IMG/VR virus record: IMGVR_UViG_3300032516_000234
Coordinates: 1 to 21,148 of that record
From: a virus
Reading direction: 5' to 3' (one strand)
DNA length: 21,148 nt
Shown: piece after piece, positions 2,566 to 15,241 of the stretch
Position numbering within the stretch: position 1 is the first letter of the stretch
Layout of the letters: the number at the start of each line of letters is the position of its first letter
Notes under the pieces: generated by a model
Databases searched by the model: none
What the model was told of the DNA's origin: nothing
The model's input: the letters and a program-made list of their open reading frames with translations, nothing else
Program-made: the position numbers and the translations under genes

Positions 2566-3192
2566 ATGGCCAAAACCGAGACACCCCCCGCACTGCAGAT
2601 GGTCGAGTCGCCGGCGTCCGCCAGTGATTTGGACCTGCAGTCCCAGCTTGGGACTCTCCGTGACGAAATGCGCCAGCGGATTGCCGAGAAGATTGCCAAA
2701 GGTGAGTCTGTCGACGCCGGCGTGCAGATGCTCAAAGATCCGTTCACCAGTAGGAATCCGCACCAGATCAAAGCACATCCCCCGGACAGGGTACTGTCGT
2801 GGAAGAATCCCCGGTACCGGCAGGAACGTGGATGGCGGGGTTGGTCCCCGGTTTCGTATGACGACGAAATCGGCCGGACCTTGTCCTCGTACATCGATGG
2901 TCCGCCCGCCAAGATGCAGGGTAGTGCTGTTCTGGATAATTACGTGCGGCGTGGTACTGATTCAGTGTTGTGCTGGATCCCCAAGGACGTGTGGCTGGCG
3001 AGGCAACTCGAGCAGTCCAGACGTGCTCTCGAAGCGGAAGCGCGTGCGGCCATGCGTGGCCAGATCGCAATTCGCAGCGGGGTTATGCTGACTGGGGATG
3101 GTGGCGTCAAACAAAGTACCGGCCGCGACAAATCGCAGCGGGAAATTGACGGCGAACTTATGGGTTCGCGGGAGATGCTCTCGCAGGAGTAA
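2566..3192 (+). CDS. Unknown head-region protein, Trp/Arg-rich core (208 aa)
   Basis: Not recognised. It starts at an ATG preceded by an AGGAG that overlaps the scaffold stop (TAGGAG at 2553-2558). Residues about 1-65 are helical and charged. Residues about 75-145 form a conserved-looking core with several Trp (VLSWKNPRYRQERGWRGW, then DNYVRRGTDSVLCWIPKDVW). Residues 145-165 are a Glu/Arg-rich helix and the C-terminal 45 residues look flexible. No membrane segment or enzyme motif is visible. The place between scaffold and decoration/capsid genes suggests a virion or assembly protein; that is inference. Confidence 0.55.
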   Translation: MAKTETPPALQMVESPASASDLDLQSQLGTLRDEMRQRIAEKIAKGESVDAGVQMLKDPFTSRNPHQIKAHPPDRVLSWKNPRYRQERGWRGWSPVSYDDEIGRTLSSYIDGPPAKMQGSAVLDNYVRRGTDSVLCWIPKDVWLARQLEQSRRALEAEARAAMRGQIAIRSGVMLTGDGGVKQSTGRDKSQREIDGELMGSREMLSQE

Positions 3193-3201
3193 GAAGTTTT
3201 C

Positions 3202-3795
3202 ATGGCTAACAATGTGAATGCCCCTATGGGGCTTCGGCCGCTTAACGCGCCGAATGGCAATTCGCCGCGAGTTGGCGAGTACGTAGTGCCGGCCAGCGCC
3301 AATACCATCTACGAAGGTGATATTGTTGTGCGCAGCGAGACTGGCGTTGTGGCTCTCATTTCCACGGTTACTACGGTCTTGGCCCATAGTATCCGCGGAG
3401 CAGCCGCGCACTATTCACCCACTTCTACCGCCAAGCGCACGATTTTGGTCTATGACGACCCGGATCAGGTGTTTTTGCTTCAGGGCGATAGCGTAGGTAC
3501 AGTGCTATACGATACGGATGCGGAAATTCTGGCTGCCATTGGTCAGTTTACTGCTCCGGTCCTCATTGTCGGAGGCGCTGGCGACACTACCACGGGGCAG
3601 TCTAAACTTATGATGGATAGCAGTGCTGCGGCTATTCCTGTGCAGAAGTTGGCTGAAACCGCGGCTATTTTCCAGTTCCTCGGCGTGTACCCGGCCGTCT
3701 CTAATGACGTTACTGGCTTGTATGCAAAGTATATGGTCAAGTTCGGCAAGATGACGCATATCGAAACTACTTCCGGCAGCCTGACGGTTGCGTAA
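3202..3795 (+). CDS. Head decoration-like structural protein (197 aa)
   Basis: Probable virion structural protein, either a capsid decoration protein or a minor head component. The N terminus NAPMGLRPLNAPNG followed by VGEYVVPASANTIYEGDIV is a pattern I know from phage structural proteins encoded just before or beside the major capsid gene, usually as 'G(L/F)RP... Y.I.A... GD.V'. The rest alternates short beta strands (RTILVYDDPDQVFLLQGDS) with small turns, and the C terminus carries FLGVYPAVSNDVTGLYAKYMVKF, also typical. There is no membrane segment. Its AGGAG (3185-3189) overlaps the upstream gene's end. It could alternatively be a second coat protein; the gene next door is the better major capsid candidate. 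Confidence 0.65.
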   Translation: MANNVNAPMGLRPLNAPNGNSPRVGEYVVPASANTIYEGDIVVRSETGVVALISTVTTVLAHSIRGAAAHYSPTSTAKRTILVYDDPDQVFLLQGDSVGTVLYDTDAEILAAIGQFTAPVLIVGGAGDTTTGQSKLMMDSSAAAIPVQKLAETAAIFQFLGVYPAVSNDVTGLYAKYMVKFGKMTHIETTSGSLTVA

Positions 3796-3829
3796 TTTGG
3801 CTTAACAGCCTGAAAGGTAGGTACTGGTC

Positions 3830-4741
3830 ATGAGTGCTGGTGCCATCATGCTGCGTGCCAGATTTGCGGACTTGTTTCAGTCGCGTCTGGCCTTCCTTGA
3901 CGAGATCATGTTCGAGAACTTCAACGCCCCGGGGCTCTCGTATCCCTCGGTGTTCAATGTTCGTAATTCCAGCCGTGCGTACGAAGAGGTTACCGGCATC
4001 ACCGGCTTTGGCGAGTTCGCCACCAAGACGGAAGCCGGCGGGATCCTCTACGATACCCTGTTGCAGGGCTTCGACAAGCGGTTCACGCACGTCACGTACT
4101 CCAAGGGCTTCCAGATCAGTTTCGAGGCTGCCGATGACGACATCGACGGCGCGATTACTGCGGCTGGTCCCCCGCTGGCACGTGCCGCGCACGTGTCCAT
4201 CGAGCGGTACATCTGGTCCGTGATTAATGGTGGGTTTGCCACCACGACCACGCCCGATGCCGCGTACCTGTTCTCGGCCAGCCATGTGCTGGTCGGTGGC
4301 GGTACGGCCAGCAATCTCGTGTCCGGCGATCTCTCGATTGCTAATCTCGAGACTGCGATCAATCTGTTCGATACCATGGTGGACGACCGGTCCATGCCCA
4401 TCGAGGGCAATCCGGCTGTTCTCGTGATTCCTGTCCAGCTTCGGTGGCTGGCGCACGAGATCCTCAAGTCGGAACTTCGATCGAACACCGCCGACAATGC
4501 GACCAACGCTCTGGCGCCCCTCGGCATCCAGATCGTGATGTCGAAGTACCTCACCGATGACGACTCGTGGTTCGTCATGTCGCCTCCTGCCCAGCATCGC
4601 GTGCTGGCGTACTGGCGTATGCAGCCGGCCACGGATCATACCATCGATTTCGAGACTGGCAATCTGAAGTCCAAGATGACCTACCGGCTGTCGGCGGGTG
4701 CTGCGGACTGGCGGAATGTGGTCGGCGGACTGGGGGCGTAA
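3830..4741 (+). CDS. Major capsid protein, HK97 fold, gpT-like (303 aa)
   Basis: Forms the icosahedral shell. Visible family features: an N-terminal helix (FADLFQSRLAFLDEIMFENF), then YPSVFNVRNSSRAYEE and FGEFATKTEAGGILYDT, then FTHVTYSKGFQISFEAADDD (an extended-arm and spine-helix pattern of gpT-like coat proteins), FSASHVLVGGGTASNL at about residues 147-165, an NPAVLVIPVQLRWLAHEI strand and helix, and DDDSWFVMS near the C terminus. The length fits HK97-fold coats that lack a long N-terminal scaffold domain, consistent with a separate scaffold gene. An SD-like GAAAGG/AGGTAGG precedes the ATG. Codon use is strongly GC-ending, as expected of a highly expressed gene. Five G residues just before the stop could permit some frameshifting. 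Confidence 0.85.
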   Translation: MSAGAIMLRARFADLFQSRLAFLDEIMFENFNAPGLSYPSVFNVRNSSRAYEEVTGITGFGEFATKTEAGGILYDTLLQGFDKRFTHVTYSKGFQISFEAADDDIDGAITAAGPPLARAAHVSIERYIWSVINGGFATTTTPDAAYLFSASHVLVGGGTASNLVSGDLSIANLETAINLFDTMVDDRSMPIEGNPAVLVIPVQLRWLAHEILKSELRSNTADNATNALAPLGIQIVMSKYLTDDDSWFVMSPPAQHRVLAYWRMQPATDHTIDFETGNLKSKMTYRLSAGAADWRNVVGGLGA

Positions 4742-4743
4742 TC

Positions 4744-5184
4744 ATGGCGGCAGGAACTGTTCGTCAGAAAGGTACCCGGTTTTCCGGTCCCGTTAAAAAC
4801 GCCGAAGTAGTCCTGTTTGACCCGCTATTCGTGGACGCCGAGGGTGTTCGGGTGATGGCATTGCCCACCGATAAGGGGGCCGTTGTTACCTACATCATGG
4901 TCAATGCTGTTGGTGTGACTGGTAGCCCAGATCTTATTGTAGGTCACGCTACGGACACGGATGCGCTCGTAACAACTGTGCAGGTTACCACAGCGTTGGC
5001 GGTTACCGCGGGTGGATTTGCTGCCACTATTCTTACCCCGACTGGTCTTCTGCAGGGAGAACTCGGTAAGAATGCGCGTTTGACTGTTACTGTTGCAACT
5101 GCCACTTCGGAAGCAGTTGCTAATTTGCAGGTCCATATTTGGGGGTACCTGACCGATTACGAAGGTACTACCAAACTTCGGTAA
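4744..5184 (+). CDS. Small beta-rich virion protein after capsid (146 aa)
   Basis: Unrecognised family; probably a capsid-associated or decoration protein. The chosen ATG at 4744 lies two bases after the capsid stop. The frame is open for 177 bases upstream, but that part reads as out-of-frame capsid sequence (Cys/His/Arg-rich and unlike the rest), so it is not used. The product is Val/Thr/Ala-rich with alternating strands (VVTYIMVNAVGVTG, ARLTVTVATATSEAVANL, QVHIWGYLTDY), suggesting an Ig-like or jelly-roll fold. A hairpin terminator follows immediately. A capsid-fused form through frameshifting is possible but unproven. Confidence 0.6.
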   Translation: MAAGTVRQKGTRFSGPVKNAEVVLFDPLFVDAEGVRVMALPTDKGAVVTYIMVNAVGVTGSPDLIVGHATDTDALVTTVQVTTALAVTAGGFAATILTPTGLLQGELGKNARLTVTVATATSEAVANLQVHIWGYLTDYEGTTKLR

Positions 5185-5193
5185 TACGGAATG

Positions 5194-5227
5194 GGGGTGG
5201 GTTCGGCAAATGAGCCCACCCCTTATT
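5194..5227 (+). terminator. Rho-independent terminator after the capsid genes
   Basis: Bases 5194-5204 (GGGGTGGGTTC) pair with 5212-5222 (GAGCCCACCCC): eleven continuous pairs with one G-U wobble, and a seven-base loop. TTATT follows. The stem is very GC-rich and the T-tract is short, so termination is likely to be partial. The position, directly after the capsid genes, is like Tphi after T7 gene 10: it would give high capsid transcript levels with read-through to tail genes. The structure is seen; the efficiency is inferred. Confidence 0.75.
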
Positions 5228-5244
5228 CACATAAGGAGTAAATC

Positions 5245-6117
5245 GTGGACGACCGCATTCACATCACCGATAGTGACATGGTGTTGGATGGACAACCGGA
5301 TTACGTAATTGGGCGCAGGTCGTCCATTAAGCTGGCAACAAAGCCCCATATTGTGGTCGCTATCCCCATGGGATGTAAGGCGCACGATAGCGTGCTACAG
5401 TGTCCAGAATGTGAAAAACAATACAAAGTGGATTCCGGTTTTACGGTGCCGGCGAGTGTACCCGCGGTATTCTTCATATCGCATATGAACTGGGTTCCGC
5501 CCCTTAATGTCGCGATGACCTACGCCTTCAAATCTGGAATGCGATCTCCGCATGCTCGCCAGATTATGACGATGGAGGCCATTCGACAGGGTGCGAAGTA
5601 CATTTTCTACGTCGACGATGATACTATCATTCCGCGACTGGGACTGTACACACTCCACAATTTCATGGAACAGCACCCCGAAGTTGGGGCTGTAACCGGC
5701 ATCTACACTACCCGCGAAGATCCGTGCGAGCCACTCCTGTACAAGAACCACGGAGAAGGCGCCGCATGGGACATCGAAATGGGTCCGGGTGCGCGGCCTA
5801 CGCAGATCATGGGTGGAGGCGCCGGCTGCCTTTTGGCGCGCGTCGAGGCCATCAAGGCGTGGATGGATGCGAATCCTGACCAGCCAATTTGGGCCGATCA
5901 GCGCGACATTCCCGCGGATGGTTCGGATGACAGTATCCCATTGGTCATGTGGGGACACGACATTAGATTCTGCGTTTTGTTGACGGAGTTGGGTTGGCCC
6001 GTCTATGCGCACGGACAAGTCCTGTGCGGCCATTATGACGTAGACACGAATCGCGTTTTCGAGGTGCCGGCCGATGCCCCGGGCTTTAGCATCCGGAATG
6101 CGGCGCCCAAGGAGTAA
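5245..6117 (+). CDS. GT-A fold glycosyltransferase (290 aa)
   Basis: Likely transfers a sugar from a nucleotide-sugar donor. The nucleotide-binding strand is HIVVAIPMG (35-43). The metal-binding DDD is at 124-126 in KYIFYVDDDTIIP. A GGGAGCLLARVEAI acceptor-side element is at about 190-203. WGHDIRFC at 236-243 followed by CGHYD (261-265) fits the catalytic-acid and late histidine elements of GT2-like enzymes. An insert near the N terminus holds C44-x2-H47 and C53-x2-C56 (CPEC), possibly a zinc knuckle. There is no membrane segment, so it is cytoplasmic. It starts with GTG after AAGGAG (5234-5239). The acceptor is unknown: virion proteins, DNA or host glycans are all possible. It lies just after the capsid terminator and before the fibre genes. 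Confidence 0.82.
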   Translation: MDDRIHITDSDMVLDGQPDYVIGRRSSIKLATKPHIVVAIPMGCKAHDSVLQCPECEKQYKVDSGFTVPASVPAVFFISHMNWVPPLNVAMTYAFKSGMRSPHARQIMTMEAIRQGAKYIFYVDDDTIIPRLGLYTLHNFMEQHPEVGAVTGIYTTREDPCEPLLYKNHGEGAAWDIEMGPGARPTQIMGGGAGCLLARVEAIKAWMDANPDQPIWADQRDIPADGSDDSIPLVMWGHDIRFCVLLTELGWPVYAHGQVLCGHYDVDTNRVFEVPADAPGFSIRNAAPKE

Positions 6118-6119
6118 GT

Positions 6120-8159
6120 GTGGCGACATATTGGGTTAGCGATCTTCAGGGCGTAGATGATGTTGGGCATACCGGGCTATCGTATGTGTTGGCTAAGAAG
6201 ACCTGCAATGAAGGTCTGAAATTGCTGGCGAGTGCTGGGGATATACTCAATATCGTCAATGATGGGGAATACGCGCTAGAACCCGTGGCCGCGAATGCGC
6301 CGTATTTGGTGTCTGTAACTGGTGGTTCCAGTTGGGAAAATTTTGGATTCAAAATCCAAGGAACCACTCCTACGGGTACTCCCGCATTAACTACTCTCAA
6401 ATCTGGAAACACGGCAGCATTCTTCATAAAGATCAATGCGGCGTATTCGTATACCATTGTGCAAGGTTTCAGATTCGATTCATCGGCCGCTCGGGGCAAT
6501 GCTGCAGTGTCACAGACTTACGTATGGATAGACACCTCTCTTAGTAGTACTACTTGGGGACCGATTAAGATCCGTTGGTGCGAGGTAGATGCGGGGGTAC
6601 CGACTGCCACATTGAGTAGTAGGAATCTTTTACATTACCACATGTCCAATTCCATAGCGGGTATTACAAATATTGGATCTGTGGAATATTGTTACATCCG
6701 CAATGTTGGCTTGTCAGTCATAAGCATCCAACCACATGACGACTACAACGGTTCTCCCGCCAATTTCGAAGTAAAGAATTGTTTCTTTTATGATACGGTG
6801 GGGTACACCAGTTCCACTTCTAGAAAGATACTTCTGGATGATCGCATTGGTTCCGTGGGGTCGACATCCAGCGTACACCATAATACGTGGGTATGTTCAG
6901 GAACAGTAGCTTTTCCATACCAAACTGCGTTTGTGCAGTTGCAATCTTCGTTTAATGCAAGTACATTATGGGCTACTAATGTACTATTGCATTCTAACAT
7001 ATTTGCGTTTTATGGAGTTGGCGCCAATCCCAATACTTCTTCCACATTTAGAGGCATGGGTTTTTTTGCGCAACTAATAACCAATCCGACTATAGGGTAC
7101 AATATCTTCAAATATGAAGGTACGGCTCGGATACCCACGTCTGGTTGGTATAGTGGAATTGTAGATCCTGACCGCGTTGACGCTCCGGATGACGCCGACA
7201 CATACGCCACAGATCATGTCCTCCATTCCGGCGTCACAGACCACAGCGATCTGTTTCATATCCCCGGCACTCCTAGGGTGTGGGCGGAACCTTTGGCTGA
7301 TGGTGGGTATACCATCACCATTCCCGGGGATCTGCGCCCGCGGTACCTGTATCGTACTGATGGGTTGGATGCCAGCATTCCCGGTGCAACCGCGGAAACA
7401 TTCGATGAAGCACCCATTACAGTAGACGACGCGTACGCCTGTCTCGCTAACGAAACTGTGTCCGGCAATGTTCTGACCAATGACTCGGATCCTGACGGGT
7501 ATCCGACCGTGGGTGAAGTTCAGGTTCCGATGACAGCCGTATGGTACTCGGGGCCAACGGCCGGGACGTTGGTTGGAGGACTTGGGTCTGACGGGTCGTT
7601 CACGTACTTGGCGCCGGCCGACGATGGCGTCTACACGTTTACGTATCGGGCATACGACAGCGAACTGTTCTCACGAGTTACCACGGTCACCATAACTGTC
7701 ACGTCTGTAGTTGTGCCGCCGGATCCGCCGCCAGACGACGTGATCGAAGACCCCGTATTTCTGGATGTATTGCCGTGGTTTGAGCCAGATCTCAAAGTGG
7801 TAGAGACACTATCAATCCAAACCAAGCGCAACCGGGTTATTCATCACGACCAGCGTTCATATTCCGAACGTAAACGCTGGCGCGAGTTCACACATCGTGT
7901 GGTGGAACTGGCTACAAACACAACTCAGATAATCACCTTGGGTGGCATACAGACTGCGGAATTTGTAATGCTGAAAACAGACAGTCCCATTGACATGGCA
8001 ATCAATGGCAATTTTCTTACCGAAGTGGGACAAGCCGCTTCTCCATATTGGCCAGTTACTTCGTTGGCAGCGCTGTCTATGTCTTGTGTTACTGGTATCT
8101 GTTTGCGAAATAACAGCACCACTAACACGGCAACGATAATCATGGCGGTGACGGACTGA
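6120..8159 (+). CDS. Beta-helix tail fibre with Ig/cadherin-like domain (679 aa)
   Basis: Probable receptor-binding fibre or spike. Residues 1 to about 400 are Gly/Ser/Thr/Asn-rich with repeated short strands and right-handed beta-helix spacing (VEYCYIRNVGLSVIS, VKNCFFYDT, VHHNTWVCSG, LLHSNIFAF). Residues about 425-530 form a cadherin-like/Ig repeat with the signature VSGNVLTNDSDPDG at 447-460. A proline-rich linker (VPPDPPPDD) follows at about 532. The last 130 residues form a separate beta domain (FVMLKTDSPIDMAINGN). No catalytic site or autoprotease motif is evident. The GTG start at 6120 has AAGGAG five bases upstream, overlapping the glycosyltransferase end. It lacks the anchoring N terminus seen in the 13544 spike. 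Parts of it are clearly AT-richer than neighbours, suggesting later acquisition. Confidence 0.7.
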   Translation: MATYWVSDLQGVDDVGHTGLSYVLAKKTCNEGLKLLASAGDILNIVNDGEYALEPVAANAPYLVSVTGGSSWENFGFKIQGTTPTGTPALTTLKSGNTAAFFIKINAAYSYTIVQGFRFDSSAARGNAAVSQTYVWIDTSLSSTTWGPIKIRWCEVDAGVPTATLSSRNLLHYHMSNSIAGITNIGSVEYCYIRNVGLSVISIQPHDDYNGSPANFEVKNCFFYDTVGYTSSTSRKILLDDRIGSVGSTSSVHHNTWVCSGTVAFPYQTAFVQLQSSFNASTLWATNVLLHSNIFAFYGVGANPNTSSTFRGMGFFAQLITNPTIGYNIFKYEGTARIPTSGWYSGIVDPDRVDAPDDADTYATDHVLHSGVTDHSDLFHIPGTPRVWAEPLADGGYTITIPGDLRPRYLYRTDGLDASIPGATAETFDEAPITVDDAYACLANETVSGNVLTNDSDPDGYPTVGEVQVPMTAVWYSGPTAGTLVGGLGSDGSFTYLAPADDGVYTFTYRAYDSELFSRVTTVTITVTSVVVPPDPPPDDVIEDPVFLDVLPWFEPDLKVVETLSIQTKRNRVIHHDQRSYSERKRWREFTHRVVELATNTTQIITLGGIQTAEFVMLKTDSPIDMAINGNFLTEVGQAASPYWPVTSLAALSMSCVTGICLRNNSTTNTATIIMAVTD

Positions 8160-8641
8160 TGCCAACTGAAGGTGTCAATCCTACTTCGGCCGCTGTGGAC
8201 GCCGCAGTAGTTAAGTTCACCACCAACGCCTATGATGATAATGTTGCAACGATTTGTACTTTAGGTTATGCCGCCAAACCCAACACCGCCACTGTTCGTT
8301 TCCAGTCCTTTGGAGATGGTACTGTATCCCCAACTCAGCGAAGATCTGTGTACTTGGCGGTAATGGGTGAATGGCTGACGGCGGGGCTGTCAGACGCGAC
8401 CCCGTACATATCAATAGCATTCCAAATAAAAAGAGTAGTTGATTCGTATTGGATCACTCTCATAAATGAGAGAATGGCGTATTACTCTTCGTGGCCCACC
8501 GGCAGTTGGAGAAGATTCGATATCACTTCCATAGTGGGAGAAGATGACTTATCTCACTACCATGTTCGTATTATGCACTTTGTAAGTGATACACCTCCTG
8601 ATCCACTCGAGCCCCCATACGGGGATGGTGGTGGCACGTAA
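8159..8641 (+). CDS. Beta-rich tail or fibre accessory protein (160 aa)
   Basis: Unrecognised. The start ATG overlaps the fibre stop by one base (TGATG), implying coupled translation. The sequence shows alternating strands and aromatic residues (ATVRFQSFGDG, YISIAFQIKRVVDSYWITLINE, SWRRFDITSIVGEDDLSHYHVRIMHF), compatible with a jelly-roll or carbohydrate-binding-type sandwich, and ends in a Pro/Gly-rich tail (PPDPLEPPYGDGGGT). No catalytic residues are recognisable. Its place in the fibre cassette suggests a fibre component; that is inferred from context. Confidence 0.5.
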   Translation: MPTEGVNPTSAAVDAAVVKFTTNAYDDNVATICTLGYAAKPNTATVRFQSFGDGTVSPTQRRSVYLAVMGEWLTAGLSDATPYISIAFQIKRVVDSYWITLINERMAYYSSWPTGSWRRFDITSIVGEDDLSHYHVRIMHFVSDTPPDPLEPPYGDGGGT

Positions 8642-9117
8642 TGGCCAACTCCACATTTGTTCTTCGAGAAATAGAGTTTCAAGTCGAGTACCCCGGAACT
8701 ACGTATTCAGGAGATCCCATGACGGTATTTGGTTTGAACACCGGAATTCGTGTACTGGACAACGTGTCGTTGCTGGTGGATTCCGCCAATAGCGTCAACA
8801 ATTCAGGACTACTATACGGAAGTCTGGCAGTTGTCGGTGCCGACTTGGATGATGGTTTGCCAACAGCTTCAGTGTGTGTATACCTAAATCCCGAACGCAC
8901 AGTATTCTCGCAACTAAGATTGCGGTTGCCAGACGTAGCGGCTACTACGCTTACGGTGCCCGTGACTTCCGAAAATACTGTGGCTACGTTTGCCGATGCT
9001 CCGGTTGTCACACCATACGGGCTACGAGTAGCCATCACCAGTAACGAGGCATCCGACGGCACCGGTACAGTGGACATCTTTCTGATGGGGAGTGAACATG
9101 GCTGTTCCCGAGGGTAG
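8641..9117 (+). CDS. Small beta-rich virion protein, PYGLR family member A (158 aa)
   Basis: Unknown function, but its C-terminal half resembles the genes starting at 9098 and 9782. It has VCVYLNPERTVF (about residues 78-89) and, about 45 residues later, TPYGLRVAITS followed by a final strand VDIFLMGS. The rest is Val/Thr/Ser-rich alternating strands. It begins one base inside the stop of the gene before (TAATG). Its last codons overlap the next gene. Probably a fibre-associated or minor structural protein; inferred from the fibre context and from paralogy. Confidence 0.55.
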   Translation: MANSTFVLREIEFQVEYPGTTYSGDPMTVFGLNTGIRVLDNVSLLVDSANSVNNSGLLYGSLAVVGADLDDGLPTASVCVYLNPERTVFSQLRLRLPDVAATTLTVPVTSENTVATFADAPVVTPYGLRVAITSNEASDGTGTVDIFLMGSEHGCSRG

Positions 9118-9484
9118 TATGGCGCGTGGGGAAGTACAGATTATCCCGTACGCAATTGCGGCTGGCACGATTGCTAAGTTTGATCTGACCCCCGGAGCGT
9201 ATGATCTACACGTGATTAAGTCGCCCACTAGTACCGCTCAACCTATGAAGGTGGATCTGTACACAAATCCGGAACAAACAGCCGTAGATACGATGTACAT
9301 GTTGCAGACTTCTTCCGGTCTGGCGGCTACTTCCTTTCTTACTGTGCAAGCTGCCACCGGGCAGAACGTACTGGTAACTCCCCGTGGTAGTAACTATACT
9401 CCTTTTGTAATTCCGTATGGATTGCGTGTGCGATTCTTGGGATCTGGCAATTACAACGGATTCTTAGTCACGCGGAGACGGTAA
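9098..9484 (+). CDS. Small beta-rich virion protein, PYGLR family member B (128 aa)
   Basis: Second member of the putative family: KVDLYTNPEQTAV near the middle and IPYGLRVRFLGSGNYNGFLV at the C terminus align with the 8641 and 9782 proteins. The N terminus shares the pattern 'IIPYAIAAG...FDLTPGAYDLHV' with the 9782 protein. I chose the ATG at 9098 because GGGGAG lies five bases upstream. A GTG at 9092 adds two residues, and an ATG at 9119 just after the upstream stop is also possible. It overlaps the previous gene by 20 bases. Function unknown; structural by context. Confidence 0.55.
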   Translation: MAVPEGSMARGEVQIIPYAIAAGTIAKFDLTPGAYDLHVIKSPTSTAQPMKVDLYTNPEQTAVDTMYMLQTSSGLAATSFLTVQAATGQNVLVTPRGSNYTPFVIPYGLRVRFLGSGNYNGFLVTRRR

Positions 9485-9795
9485 TGCAGGCGATATCCAT
9501 CCCAGATTCCCAAGACAAGGTGCGGGTATTTGCAGCGGATGCAAGAACCTTGTATTTCAAAATTGATGTTGCCACCGATGACACCAGAAGTTCTGGCGCA
9601 ATTACATACGGGTTTGTGAACGAGCCAGTGCCACGGGAATACCGTTCGACTGCTATCCCCGGGGTGTACGTTCTGGTAGTGGATGGGCAACTAAACGGCA
9701 TCTACATACAACGCCACTTCACCCGCATTACCAAGATGGATCTTGAGGGCAAACCTACAGGATTAAACCCAGGAGGCACTCGTGTCCTCAAATAG
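9484..9795 (+). CDS. Small unknown beta-rich structural-type protein (103 aa)
   Basis: The start overlaps the preceding TAA by one base (TAATG) with GGAG upstream. The protein reads as one beta-sandwich domain: VRVFAADARTLYFKIDVATDD, then AITYGFVNEPVPREYRSTAIPGVYVLVVDG. The 'IPGVYVLVVD' pattern is common in small phage tail or fibre proteins that present a strand edge. It lacks the PYGLR motif of its neighbours, so it interrupts the paralogous series. It ends 14 bases inside the next gene. Role inferred from neighbours only. Confidence 0.5.
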   Translation: MQAISIPDSQDKVRVFAADARTLYFKIDVATDDTRSSGAITYGFVNEPVPREYRSTAIPGVYVLVVDGQLNGIYIQRHFTRITKMDLEGKPTGLNPGGTRVLK

Positions 9796-10231
9796 ACGTG
9801 ACTATGTGGTTCAACGCAGCGAGACACTGGTGATCCCAGTAATGTCTACATGGGTGGAAAGTGAGGCTGCGAACTACGACATTGACCTGCCTTTGGGTTG
9901 CTATTTTCTGACTCTATTGGTGTCCATTACAGATCCTGACGGGTCTACAAGCGCGACCATCGCTCTATACCCGTACCTTGACGCGGCCAAAACAATTGTA
10001 GGAGAAGCGCTTTCTCTGCGTGGATTGGACGAGTCCACTTCTGGAACGTCAAAAACATTGCCCGCTAGTTCTACAATCGTCGGATACGCAATAGAAGCCA
10101 ATGTAAATCCGGCGGTAGGTGGGCGTATTCCACTGTCTTTGCCTTTTGGCCTGCGCATGACGTGGAATTTCGGCAATACCCATTCTACTACTACACTATC
10201 CATCAAGTTGGCCGCGGCAAGGGATGCGTAA
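9782..10231 (+). CDS. Small beta-rich virion protein, PYGLR family member C (149 aa)
   Basis: It starts with GTG at 9782, supported by a perfect AGGAGG at 9771-9776. Third likely paralogue: an N-terminal strand pair (ETLVIPVMSTW, then NYDIDLPLGCYFLTL) matches the 9098 protein; ATIALYPYLDAAKTIV corresponds to the 'YxNPExT' segment; LPFGLRMTWNFG corresponds to PYGLR. No enzyme motif is visible. The last base of its TAA stop is the first base of the adaptor gene. Probably a fibre or tail accessory protein; function unknown. Confidence 0.55.
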   Translation: MSSNRRDYVVQRSETLVIPVMSTWVESEAANYDIDLPLGCYFLTLLVSITDPDGSTSATIALYPYLDAAKTIVGEALSLRGLDESTSGTSKTLPASSTIVGYAIEANVNPAVGGRIPLSLPFGLRMTWNFGNTHSTTTLSIKLAAARDA

Positions 10232-11262
10232 TGATTACGGGGCTTAAACTCATCAATGAGGCCGAAGATCGACTGGGGTGGCGACAAACTCCCACATTGG
10301 AAGATTCCGTTCTTCGCCCAGAAACTCGCAAGCTATTACGGATGCTGAACCGAGTGCTCAAATCATTGCAGTCTGCCGACGACTGGCCCTTGATGCGCGC
10401 AGAGGGTACCCTAATGACGCTGGCTGCGGCAGAGGGAACTGCTCCGTTCTATCTGGTCAATGGCAGTGCTACGGTAATTGTTATTTCGGGTACCCCTACT
10501 GATACGTCCACTCCGGCGGTACTGCGCCTAGATGAGAGTTACATTGGGCGAGCCATCCAAATTGGCGACGAATCCACTGTGTACCGTATTAAGTCCGTGG
10601 CCAACCCACAGTGTTTTGATCTTAATCGTCCGTGGATAGGGGCCACTACTGTTCTTGTGGCTGGGCCGTCAGAGTACCAGACCTACACCATCGCACAGGA
10701 TCAGTACTTTCTGCCCGCGGATTACTGCCGTCCTAACGGCAAATGGGATCAGTTTCTGGCTCCTTACGGCATTCAACCCGTAGGTCCAGACGCGTTTTCC
10801 ACGGTTCGGCGCAGTCGTGGTGGTACTCTACTGACCCATGCTCCGGAGATATTTACGGTCTACGGAGTGGATGCCGGGCAGGTCTACCAGATTTTGCACC
10901 TCGATCCATTCCCGCTCGAACAGCAGATCCTGCAATTTACGTACCAGATCGTGCATCCTGAAATCGAAACCGATGCTGACCGCATTCTCTTTCCCGCGTC
11001 GCATGAGGGCGTGATCCTAGAAGCCCTACTGTATCTGGCCAACAGGGACTATCAGGACGACTCCAAACTCGAAGTGGTATTGCGGGACTACATGCGCGAG
11101 ACATCGGCGGTCAGGGCCTTGTCCCCCATGACGGAAGACCCATTCCAGATACGGCCCTCTGGCTCCCATCGGATTGCCCAGCATCGTCGCTGGGGCGCTG
11201 CGAGCCCGCGGCTGGACTACGGATCCTACTTCGACCGCATTGACGTCTACGGACTGACCTAA
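10231..11262 (+). CDS. Head-tail adaptor (tail tube A-like) protein, 343 aa
   Basis: Likely sits under the portal and links it to the tail nozzle. I chose ATG 10231 (TAATG overlap, AAGGGA upstream) rather than the in-frame ATG at 10162, which would add residues read out of frame from the preceding gene. Residues 1-55 are helical and end in the LKSLQSADDWPLMRAEGT segment; the DW pair after a 'LN..L' helix is a hallmark I know from such adaptors. Residues about 75-160 form a beta domain (ATVIVISGTPTDTST, then VYRIKSV). YTIAQDQYFLPADYCRP follows, and the C-terminal third is helical. It is larger than T7 gp11 (196 aa). Order directly before the propeller protein supports the call. Confidence 0.65.
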   Translation: MITGLKLINEAEDRLGWRQTPTLEDSVLRPETRKLLRMLNRVLKSLQSADDWPLMRAEGTLMTLAAAEGTAPFYLVNGSATVIVISGTPTDTSTPAVLRLDESYIGRAIQIGDESTVYRIKSVANPQCFDLNRPWIGATTVLVAGPSEYQTYTIAQDQYFLPADYCRPNGKWDQFLAPYGIQPVGPDAFSTVRRSRGGTLLTHAPEIFTVYGVDAGQVYQILHLDPFPLEQQILQFTYQIVHPEIETDADRILFPASHEGVILEALLYLANRDYQDDSKLEVVLRDYMRETSAVRALSPMTEDPFQIRPSGSHRIAQHRRWGAASPRLDYGSYFDRIDVYGLT

Positions 11263-11272
11263 CAGGAGTACC

Positions 11273-13540
11273 ATGCCCCCCAAACGCCTAGTCATCAACA
11301 ACATGCCCCTGCGGTCAGGACTGGCCACGGCCGGCAAGCAGGGAACCATTGGCGAGGATCAGTTGTGGCGGGCAGAAAATATGTCGTCTGGTCTCGACGG
11401 ATTGCTTTCCAAGCGCCCGGGAATCCGCCAATGGGGACAGACCATTAAGCAGCCACGCGCCAATGCGTCTGGCGAGTACTTCAATTTCTATGAACCATTT
11501 TCGTCCACGGCCGTATGGGGTGTCACCAATGGCGATCCCGCCACCTTTACCCACCAAGTCAAGCAAGGCGAACTGACCGTTGCCGTCGAGGACACAAACG
11601 ACAATACGTACTTGTTCTTTGGGCGCAGCATATCTGGGGGCGAACTCGAACCAACGTCTCATGACTTTTCTCTGCGCCTAGTAATACGCGCGTTGAACTT
11701 GCCGCGAGGGGATGGGGATACCAGCGACACCACGGCGGGTGGTACTAACGACGGTGGCACCCTATCTATCTTTGCCAGATCAGACTATTCCGAAATCATG
11801 CGGTCTTTTCGTCTTTTCTATGATGGCGTGTACTGCCGCAATACTGGGAGTTGGGTTCGTATTGCTACCAGCCCCATCGGGGATGGGCAGTATCACTCCA
11901 TTGAAATTCGGTTTGATGCTACCGCCAATTGCGAAGTTTATGTGGACGAAGTGCTGGTAAGTACAACCGCATCTTCGTTCGTAGAGGAATGGACGGGGGT
12001 CATTTCCGGATCCTCGCACGAACATCTTGTGCTAGCATGGTCCAATGATGCCGGAACGTGGACATGCAAACTTACAGACTTGATGTTTAAGGACTCAGTT
12101 GAGGATCCATTCGTAGGAGAACGCATTGATGCGGTAACTGACTTCAAGACTACATCTACTGCAGGTAGTGCCAAACGCATCCTATTGGTAGCTACGCCCA
12201 GATACATCTACGCGGATATTGGACTTAGGTTGGTCTGGTCGCCCATCTTGGCGCTGACCGGAGGACAGGCCCAGTTCGCGTCGTATCGGCAGGATATGAT
12301 CATCTTTGACACCGACATGGTGCGCCTGTGGAACGGCGAAGATGAGATGGAAATTCTGGAGGATGCTCCTCCAGTACGTTTTGGTACTGAACATGGAACA
12401 CGACTATTCGCTGCCGGCGACAGGAACCATCCGCGGCGCGTGTACTTTACCGCCAGCCGCGAAGCCAATACATGGTTTGCTCCAGACGTAGATCCTGATG
12501 AGACATTCGACGAAGTGACGGAAGCGGGCTACCACGAAATTCCGGGCTCTCGTGGAGACGAAGTTACTGGTCTACACGGAGACTTCGCAAATTTCTGTTT
12601 CGTAACGACAACTCGCGGATTGTGGGTCATCAGCGGCGTGGGCCCAGAAACATACACGCGAAGTTCTGTATCCAGATCCCAGAACGGCGCCGGGCCCATG
12701 TCCATTACACGCGTAGGAAATGATTTGTGGACACTGGGCCGTACCGGCGTAGCCAATGTCCAAACTACGCAGAATTACGGGGATCTTCTGACAGTTCTTC
12801 CCAGCGCGCCCATCGGCAACTTGTGGAGTGCGGATCCGAACATCCCCAACCGTTTGGACCAGAGCCAGATTGACAAAGCAATCATCGCGTACAATCCTGT
12901 ACTTGGACTGGTATATTTGGTAGTTCCAGTGCTAGGCCAAAATGATCTATCCGCCATCTATTGCTGCAACATCGGGCTGCAAACGTGGCATGGACCTTGG
13001 GTAACGGATACGACAGCACTGGCCTGTGTGGAAATCGCGGATCCCGTCACCAGTACCATGCTCCACGGGAGTTCTGACGGGCGCGTAGGCATCACGGATC
13101 TTAGCTACAAAATGGACTATGGAGATACCAGATACACGACTATTTTCGAATCTCCTAGCCTTAGTGGGCGCAGCTTGGACCCTGCTATCACCAAACTCAT
13201 CAAGACGTGGAAAACTCTACGCCTATACATAATGCCGCGAGGTGAATGGAATATCACCGTGCGGTGGAGCGCGGACGATGATAAGGCGCAGTCTATCACG
13301 GTTTCACAAAATGCGTTCAAGTTTCCAGCGCTAAGTGACACGTTCAGACTTGGGGATTCGGTCGATGGTCTCATTCATACCGATCAATTAATCGGTGTGC
13401 TTGACATCACGCTGGATGCGCGTGGGCGCTACTTCAAGTTTACTGTCGAAACCGACGATGACAATGACGGAGAGGACTTTGTACTGCAAGGTTACGAAGT
13501 CGAATTTATCCCCAATGGGCTGGAGCAGGAAGGCGAGTAG
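11273..13540 (+). CDS. Beta-propeller tail nozzle protein with lectin-like insertion (755 aa)
   Basis: Probable distal tail/nozzle protein of the T7 gp12 or P22 gp10 type (T7 gp12 is 794 aa). The N terminus has the usual entry pattern: 'QLWRAENMSSGLDGLLSKRPG' broken as ...AENMS, then GLLSKRPGIRQW. Residues about 70-270 are an extra beta-sandwich resembling a laminin-G/concanavalin domain (SFRLFYDGVYCRN, YHSIEIRFDATANCEVYVDEVLV). From about 285 on, propeller blades follow: YRQDMIIFDTDMVRLWNGED, HGTRLFAAGDRNHPRRVYF, NFCFVTTTRGLWVISG and GNDLWTLGRTGVANVQ. The C-terminal 150 residues form a further beta domain. The AGGAG at 11264-11268 sits well before the ATG. It would be virion-located. Confidence 0.72.
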   Translation: MPPKRLVINNMPLRSGLATAGKQGTIGEDQLWRAENMSSGLDGLLSKRPGIRQWGQTIKQPRANASGEYFNFYEPFSSTAVWGVTNGDPATFTHQVKQGELTVAVEDTNDNTYLFFGRSISGGELEPTSHDFSLRLVIRALNLPRGDGDTSDTTAGGTNDGGTLSIFARSDYSEIMRSFRLFYDGVYCRNTGSWVRIATSPIGDGQYHSIEIRFDATANCEVYVDEVLVSTTASSFVEEWTGVISGSSHEHLVLAWSNDAGTWTCKLTDLMFKDSVEDPFVGERIDAVTDFKTTSTAGSAKRILLVATPRYIYADIGLRLVWSPILALTGGQAQFASYRQDMIIFDTDMVRLWNGEDEMEILEDAPPVRFGTEHGTRLFAAGDRNHPRRVYFTASREANTWFAPDVDPDETFDEVTEAGYHEIPGSRGDEVTGLHGDFANFCFVTTTRGLWVISGVGPETYTRSSVSRSQNGAGPMSITRVGNDLWTLGRTGVANVQTTQNYGDLLTVLPSAPIGNLWSADPNIPNRLDQSQIDKAIIAYNPVLGLVYLVVPVLGQNDLSAIYCCNIGLQTWHGPWVTDTTALACVEIADPVTSTMLHGSSDGRVGITDLSYKMDYGDTRYTTIFESPSLSGRSLDPAITKLIKTWKTLRLYIMPRGEWNITVRWSADDDKAQSITVSQNAFKFPALSDTFRLGDSVDGLIHTDQLIGVLDITLDARGRYFKFTVETDDDNDGEDFVLQGYEVEFIPNGLEQEGE

Positions 13541-13543
13541 CAC

Positions 13544-15241
13544 ATGGCGATCGTAACTCTGCCTACGTTTGCAGATCTCGAGATTGTTACGGCGGAGAAG
13601 CTGAACGCGCTAGTTGCCGCGCTCAACGCCAAGTTCTCGGGAGGGTTCGATTCCGGCGACATTCAGTGGCCGCTTACTGCCGAGGGCGATTTGCGGATGG
13701 ACATTTATGATATTACTGGTGGGCACAAGATCATGAATGTCATCAATGCGGCTAATTATCCATTTGAGGAAGCTGTAGCGGCGGCTGGTGCCGGTGGATG
13801 TGTGTTTATTCCGCCCAATACAACGGTAACAGGGGCCGGTGTTACATTCACCGGCAATGGCGTAGCGATTGTAGGCGCTGGACCTTCTTCGGTACTACGA
13901 TTGGCCGGCGAAGCCCCTACTAGCACTTTCATATTGCGGTCCAGTGGGGCTACTGCGCATACAGGATTCCTGATGGCCAATCTTACGCTAGACGGAAATG
14001 CTAGCGCAGGTACTGGCAACACGGGACTTCAACTTAGATATGTTCACAATGCCGTCATCCATGGGGTAACTTTCCAGAACTTCTCTGGTCCTGCACTAGA
14101 CTTGACCTACGGCGTAGCAGCGGGTAATGGATGTTCCCGTGTATCGGTGTCTAACTGTGTGTTTTCTGGAGGATCCAGTTACCACATACTATCGAATGAT
14201 GTGTCTGATATTACGATTCATGGCAACACATTCGTAGATAACACTCTATCAGCCATCTATCTGAAAGCCAATGCTACCAATTGCCTGATCAAACGCGTCA
14301 AGATCTCGAACAACAATATCTCGTCTGGCATTAATCCCGCCATATTTGTGGAAGGCAACGCCACGGCAACTTCCGCGAACTGGGCGGATATTGACGTCAG
14401 TCACAACACCGTGGATTCTATGACAGGCGCCTCGCCCGCCATATACGTGGGGTCTATTGCGGGCGGGATTCTTCGGGCGTCTGTCTGCGACAATAGCGCC
14501 GTGTCCGCAGCCCACGACGGTTTGAGCGTATGCTGCGACTACGGAACTGTGCGCGGAAACCTCCTGTACTCGGCCGGCGGGGACGGCATCGACCTGACTG
14601 AGTCCGTCATGCTGGAAGTATCTGGCAACGACGTGCGCACTGCAACAGCCAATGGCATTGACGCGCACGATTCGGTTAGTTGCACGATCCACGACAACCG
14701 AACGCAGGGTTCGGCAGTTCCTCTCCTACATTCGGCCACAACGCGTCAGTGGGCCAATGGGGACACAGTGGGCGCTCTCCCATTCGTCGGATTTGTTAAT
14801 AGAACGGCTGTTACCGTAGGAGCGGGCCTAAGTGTAGCCGGTGGATTTATTACTATCCCAGCCAATACATTGCGAGTTGGGGATGTCTTGCATTTCCATA
14901 GTGCGTACACGTATAATGGTGACGCGGATTATTCTTGGAATATGAATCTAGTGGTGCTGCCGGCAGGTGGAACAGCTAGTGTAATTGCACAGCACGCTTG
15001 GGATACAGAGCAGGATGCCTTGACTGACATGTTAGATGCTACTATGGTAGTAACTTCTGCCACCGCGGCCTATTCGCTAGTAGAGGTCAACTCGCAGAGA
15101 GCAGTAGTCATCAACACCGCCGTAGATATGCGATTCTACGTTACGTCCGAGGGTGACATGAAGGATAGCGACAGTATGACTGTTCATTATCTGGAAATTA
15201 CTCGTATCGGTGGATACGAAGAACAGACGGCCGTAACATGA
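13544..15241 (+). CDS. Tail spike with pectate-lyase-like beta-helix (565 aa)
   Basis: Likely trimeric receptor-binding spike, possibly a polysaccharide depolymerase. Residues 1-65 look like a virion anchor (VTAEKLNALVAALNAKF, DIQWPLTAEGDL). Residues about 75-115 have the pectate-lyase-3 entry (FEEAVAAAGAGGCVFIPP, VAIVGAGPSSVLRL). Residues about 140-395 are beta-helix coils with 'HNAVIHGVTFQNFSG', 'VSNCVFSGG', 'ITIHGNTFVDN' and 'ISNNNISSG'. Residues about 410-565 form a C-terminal beta-sandwich (FITIPANTLRVGDVLHFHS), probably trimerisation or binding. I cannot assign catalytic acids with certainty. It follows the nozzle gene by three bases and its stop overlaps the next start (ATGA). Confidence 0.74.
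   Translation: MAIVTLPTFADLEIVTAEKLNALVAALNAKFSGGFDSGDIQWPLTAEGDLRMDIYDITGGHKIMNVINAANYPFEEAVAAAGAGGCVFIPPNTTVTGAGVTFTGNGVAIVGAGPSSVLRLAGEAPTSTFILRSSGATAHTGFLMANLTLDGNASAGTGNTGLQLRYVHNAVIHGVTFQNFSGPALDLTYGVAAGNGCSRVSVSNCVFSGGSSYHILSNDVSDITIHGNTFVDNTLSAIYLKANATNCLIKRVKISNNNISSGINPAIFVEGNATATSANWADIDVSHNTVDSMTGASPAIYVGSIAGGILRASVCDNSAVSAAHDGLSVCCDYGTVRGNLLYSAGGDGIDLTESVMLEVSGNDVRTATANGIDAHDSVSCTIHDNRTQGSAVPLLHSATTRQWANGDTVGALPFVGFVNRTAVTVGAGLSVAGGFITIPANTLRVGDVLHFHSAYTYNGDADYSWNMNLVVLPAGGTASVIAQHAWDTEQDALTDMLDATMVVTSATAAYSLVEVNSQRAVVINTAVDMRFYVTSEGDMKDSDSMTVHYLEITRIGGYEEQTAVT

Follow-up and report, generated by a model that had tools for sequence, protein, structure and literature searches.

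A small-protein family with a predicted jelly-roll fold between the fibre and adaptor-like genes of an unclassified tailed phage and its relatives

This work identified three homologous small proteins (A, B and C) in a stretch of viral DNA of 21,148 nt (hereafter the window; virus record IMGVR_UViG_3300032516_000234, positions 1 to 21,148), which is a piece of an unclassified tailed phage genome. Comparisons of sequence profiles that include their relatives clearly point to their descent from one ancestor. With a probability of roughly 0.6, we consider that A, B and C belong to one jelly-roll family of small, single-domain proteins, as paralogues or exchanged copies, and that they are virion parts located on the tail with the fibre encoded at 6120. 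C is the usual copy and is the sole one in most phages of the group. The C family is unlisted in the databases searched; its fold is ordinary and its probable kind of role is familiar.

Results

Gene organization

All the open reading frames (ORFs) of the original prediction were confirmed (Table 1). From X to the adaptor-like gene, each gene shares 1 to 20 bases with the next, an arrangement suggestive of coupled translation. The fibre-like protein has a Big_9 domain, and its C-terminal part is conserved. A has a longer N-terminal part followed by its conserved half (residues about 57-150). An in-frame GTG precedes B at 9092, yet the B orthologue starts at MAVP.

Table 1. Genes and motifs of the window discussed in the text
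Feature	Position	Strand	Size or residues	Basis or remark
Capsid protein, HK97-type	3830			phrog_371, E 2e-13
Small gene, 4735 family	4735-5184			adjoins capsid gene
Glycosyltransferase-like gene	5245-6117			weak Pfam matches
Fibre-like protein	6120..8159	+	679 aa	Pfam Big_9, E 7e-9; relatives at same place
X	8159..8641	+	160 aa	unrelated to A/B/C; first gene of lineage-specific block
A	8641..9117	+	158 aa	divergent extra copy of C family (profile tests, shuffles)
A motif 1, YLNPERT	8881..8901	+	residues 81-87
A motif 2, PYGLRV	9013..9030	+	residues 125-130
B	9098..9484	+	128 aa	second extra copy (profile tests, hhalign, shuffles)
B motif 1, YTNPEQT	9260..9280	+	residues 55-61
B motif 2, PYGLRV	9413..9430	+	residues 106-111
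D	9484..9795	+	103 aa	unrelated, between B and C; fails C-family test; window lineage only
C	9782..10231	+	149 aa	common copy; GTG start; profile E 9.6e-18; predicted nine-strand jelly roll
C motif 1, YLDAAKT	9974..9994	+	residues 65-71	directly past strand 58-64 of model
C motif 2, PFGLRM	10142..10159	+	residues 121-126	entering strand 124-130 of model
Adaptor-like gene	10231..11262	+		3' neighbour of C; named by place and size only; anchor for finding relatives
Large tail protein	11273			named by place and size, no family match
Beta-helix protein	13544

Homology of A, B and C

The relatives of the window were gathered by scans with the 10231 and 11273 proteins and share its capsid, fibre, adaptor and tail genes. 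Compared pairwise without these relatives, A, B and C appear only borderline homologous: their Smith-Waterman scores were reached by 0 (A-B), 4 (B-C) and 31 (A-C) of 1000 shuffles. Homology becomes clear once relatives are brought into the profiles. A profile of 11 C-family proteins of other phages, none of them from the window or its sister record L002, was tested on a set of 974 ORFs (plus strand of the window and of 25 loci, several of which are overlapping pieces of one contig). It retrieved C (E = 9.6e-18), B (2.1e-8), A (2.4e-6) and the A protein of L002 (5.1e-4), whereas the first unrelated ORF came at 0.022; among these 974 ORFs it did not pick up X, D or the 4735 protein. For A, B and C, from the window as well as from L002, each score was reached by 0/2000 shuffles, compared to 374, 104 and 1334 of 2000 for the non-members D, X and the 4735 protein, respectively. 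When lineages were left out one at a time, all left-out members were recovered at 3.2e-6 or better, save the A protein of L002 (5.9e-5), whereas E-values of the top-scoring non-member ranged from 6.1e-4 to 0.075.

The alternative that C is the only true member of the family, A and B sharing short motifs with it by convergence or chance, draws on the weakness of the direct A-C comparison, apparent from the shuffles given above and from hhalign of A against the two-sequence C profile alone (E = 0.0086, probability 4.7%); B is likewise weak against this profile (0.00095, 22.2%). However, a C-family profile devoid of A and B still finds B (4.6e-11) and A (1.5e-7), as well as the L002 orthologues of B (1.2e-10) and A (5.9e-5), with the best other ORF at 0.0032. 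None of the 2000 shuffles reached the scores of A and B. We consider this alternative highly improbable. Profile comparisons by hhalign gave E = 2.3e-5 (76.1%) between A and B, and, with the C-family proteins of other phages, 7.4e-10 (96.5%) for B and 3.5e-6 (87.6%) for A. The common ancestry implied by the original prediction, an old duplication of one small domain, is thus borne out by profile tests, leave-one-lineage-out searches and shuffles; the tree does not separate local duplication from a copy gained from a relative.

D and X were also considered as family members and were rejected by the C-family profile, by the shuffles and by searches with their own profiles. Kinship of the C family with the 4735 family received no profile support: A, B, C, the C-family proteins of other phages or all C proteins gave at most 2.4% probability with hhalign. 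Profile comparison also revealed no link between the C family and the C-terminal part of the fibre.

Motifs

The original prediction relied on two spaced elements, YxNPExT and PYGLR or PFGLR, 45-60 residues apart. Both are present in all three proteins; their spacing from start to start is 44 (A), 51 (B) and 56 (C) residues. The N-terminal strand pair proposed to be common to B and C was found. The literal strings PYGLR and YxNPExT were rejected as a family signature, orthologues being devoid of them: in the nearest relative, B reads PYGIQI and VNEAQT and C reads PFGALV. According to patterns set post hoc, a looser motif 1 (a strand ending roughly in [YFWM]x[ND]xx[QKRH][TN]) occurs in 15 of the 17 family proteins. 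A PYG-type turn with a hydrophobic residue after it occurs in 14/17, and A, B and C each carry both elements at similar spacing. The L008 protein reads, by eye, IHGMKV at the turn position. From their placement in the C model, both motifs look structural and not catalytic. No paper on PYGLR in phages was found in the open-access literature.

Predicted fold and comparison with known proteins

C is predicted with fair confidence to be a nine-strand jelly roll: its model, built from 15 aligned proteins, has a pLDDT of 81.6, a pTM of 0.75, nine strands and no helix. The nearest solved folds are YomS (Z 10.7, 2.4 Å over 111) and IBDV VP2 (10.2), then the Omono River virus protrusion (9.9), the baseplate cup of phage KP1 (9.5) and the 4-1BB ligand (9.2); these values are close to ties. 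The best Foldseek E-value of the C model was 5.8e-4 in the PDB and 2.5e-5 among predicted viral proteins, several of which come from uncultured tailed phages. A jelly roll gives a fold class and not a function, and a Z near 10 fits many unrelated proteins. For A, the shared fold rests on sequence because its own model is poor (pLDDT 53.6, too poor to count, from an alignment that contained relatives of B and C); the matches of this model are headed by YomS (Z 10.1) and include the BPP-1 jelly roll (Z 7.6).

The C-terminal domain of YomS/XepA (6i5o), the best structural match of the C model, is like C a small phage protein made of a single jelly roll, but the two are only 14% identical and YomS was absent from the matches listed for the C-family profile A14 against the PDB. 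In PMC6834076, YomS is described as a pentameric disc and as a protein of the lytic cassette, whereas the A, B and C genes lie between a fibre gene and the adaptor-like gene. The baseplate cup of a variant of Klebsiella phage KP1 (PDB 9f4b chain F, residues 314-447; 3.4 Å over 112) contains a tail jelly-roll domain similar to the C model, but this is a domain of a baseplate protein of ~447 residues and is 12% identical to C. IBDV VP2, satellite virus capsid proteins and the TNF-like 4-1BB ligand have the fold class in common with C (Z 9-10); with these capsid proteins and TNF-like ligands no sequence link was seen, and their biology is unrelated.

The suggestion that the three proteins are not assignable to any known family held. 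B, C and their relatives matched no family of Pfam or PHROGs; A matched none in Pfam and, in PHROGs, nothing better than phrog_25932 (E = 0.48); NCBIfam gave none for A, B and C. The tblastn searches of A, B and C, and likewise of the fibre, adaptor-like and tail proteins, gave no match in 50,697 phage records, nor did those of the L019 copy and of the first L022 copy in the phage collection. The adaptor-like protein has no match in Pfam, PHROGs or NCBIfam, and PDB sequence searches with the adaptor, tail and C-family profiles yielded nothing useful. B used alone in a viral scan retrieved no relative, and a scan of the genome collection with the adaptor alignment found no match. In six of 18 phage records with a distant capsid match, neither the family profile nor the adaptor profile gave a match, an empty result of a kind that proves nothing by itself; the capsid profile did match in these six and in L009, so the records were readable.

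Distribution, copy number and gene order

Copies were counted with a profile that combined C, its relatives and B but not A; it matched in 18 of the 19 whole virus records searched. Several records repeat one another almost identically, as pairs or triples, and our grouping gives ~14 lineages, 13 of them with a match. The window, L001 and L002 have three copies each, L021 and L022 two, and the 13 others one. Most relatives carry one small gene immediately 5' of the adaptor gene. The gene directly before the adaptor-like one is a C-family gene in the window, L002, L004, L007, L008, L009, L013, L018, L019, L022, L023 and L024. The gene upstream of it is a relative of the 6120 fibre according to phmmer in L002, L004, L007, L008, L013, L018, L019 and L024, and is fibre-like by eye in L009, L022 and L023. 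L020, searched as a whole record, has no C-family match and its fibre gene runs directly into the adaptor gene; either the C-family protein is not always needed or it is encoded outside that fragment.

X, A, B and D form a four-gene block between the fibre gene and C that is found in the window and L001/L002 only; A itself was found only there, the matches of the X profile are confined to ORFs of these records, and the D profile found no other clear ORF among the 974 beyond the window lineage. The original prediction described the three genes as interrupted by one different gene, D; D is indeed unrelated, but so is X, which belongs to the same block. In the family tree, the two L022 copies are sisters (support 96/92), which points to a second, separate duplication in L022. 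The tree (backbone support 46/62) does not fix the order in which A, B and C branch; A and B may either stem from C in place or have been gained from a relative.

This gene order also bears on another role. C-family proteins could be assembly helpers that fold or trimerise the 6120 fibre without being part of the virion, A and B being further helpers. Small genes immediately downstream of fibre genes often encode chaperones, and C directly follows the fibre gene in those single-copy lineages in which the interval between fibre and adaptor-like gene was inspected. However, the predicted fold is a viral-type jelly roll, no assembly protein was matched in Pfam, PHROGs or NCBIfam, and L020 retains a fibre without C. 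We regard such helpers as unlikely.

Divergence between the window and L002

The identity between the proteins of the window and those of L002 is 99% for the capsid protein, 49% for the fibre, 43% for X, 48% for A, 52% for B, 39% for D, 43% for C, 73% for the adaptor, 76% for the tail protein and 62% for the beta-helix protein. With 39-52%, the fibre, X, A, B, D and C rank among the proteins of lowest conservation, compared to 73 and 76% for the two that follow. Differences at fourfold sites amount to 0.08 for the 2566 gene and 0.13 for the capsid gene, 0.60 for the 4747 gene, 0.32 for the 5245 gene, and 0.56-0.78, all near saturation, from the fibre through the beta-helix gene. Divergence changes sharply, from low in 2566-4741 to high in 4747-15241. 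From the sequences compared, this step looks like recombination between related phages, with a boundary probably near the capsid gene. The fourfold-site contrast indicates that part of the protein divergence reflects ancestry; inside the older, diverged part, conservation is still lowest in the fibre and the small proteins. Elsewhere in the window, a small ORF (1425-1652) has no clear similarity to its positional counterpart in L002 (22% over 32 aligned residues), its flanking genes being 100% and 83% identical to those of L002.

These values are relevant to the possibility that C-family proteins coat the head as cement or head fibres, only their genes adjoining the fibre gene. Jelly-roll cement proteins are present on phage heads, and the BPP-1 jelly roll belongs to the low-confidence matches of the A model. 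However, the 4735 family gene, located directly 3' of the capsid gene in several relatives, is a better cement candidate. Furthermore, near-identical capsids combined with C proteins that are 43% identical would be odd for a tight capsid binder, yet the 4735 protein differs as much (30%). Overall, we consider a head location improbable.

Genes near the capsid gene

The 4735 family is a separate small family 3' of the capsid gene and likely a cement or decoration protein; its L002 member is 30% identical to that of the window, compared to 99% for the capsid. The glycosyltransferase-like gene sits within the run of virion genes. It encodes 290 residues in the window and L002 and has longer forms in relatives (L008:5118-6521, L004:5742-7214 and L007:696-2135), the part added in L008 matching methyltransferase families. 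Homing-endonuclease-like genes lie directly 3' of the capsid gene in three records: L008:4204-4617 is LAGLIDADG-like (E = 0.0012, slightly below the Pfam cut-off), L019:4184-4624 is LAGLIDADG-like by eye, and L020:4665-5084 shows by eye an HNH-like pattern without Pfam match. Proteins of ~330 residues, beta-helix-like by eye, are encoded downstream of the capsid gene in L018:6487-7518, L019:4675-5673 and L020:5088-6062.

Discussion

The place of the genes between fibre and adaptor, the jelly-roll fold and the low conservation together suggest a small oligomeric tail part near the fibre. The fibre-tip or decoration role put forward in the original prediction appears plausible from the gene place in 12 lineages and from the predicted jelly roll of C. 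We infer that A, B and C are present in the virion, form oligomers, contact the fibre and face the host. A, B and C would be made from one run of overlapping genes, adopt a jelly-roll fold and assemble into small rings or trimers. These assemblies would accompany the 6120 fibre on the short tail, forming a host-facing collar or tip of this fibre, and the extra copies A and B would provide extra or mixed assemblies with other surfaces.

A more specific arrangement can be imagined, in which the fibre base would be surrounded by a mixed pseudo-symmetric jelly-roll ring or collar composed of A, B and C and perhaps also of D and X. It would derive from a homomeric ring of C by duplication, and phages of this group would tune host attachment by a gene number of 0 to 3. 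We regard this ring as rather unlikely.

Phage tails are rich in jelly rolls and duplicated domains, so this is otherwise an ordinary kind of finding. It is a modest but sound gain for the knowledge of phage tails: a family of small proteins with a predicted jelly-roll fold and strongly diverged extra copies, unlisted in the databases searched, in tailed phages whose fibre, adaptor-like and tail proteins lack any tblastn match in the 50,697 records. The range of 0 to 3 copies at a single gene position provides a natural series for the transition from a single-copy to a multi-copy tail part.
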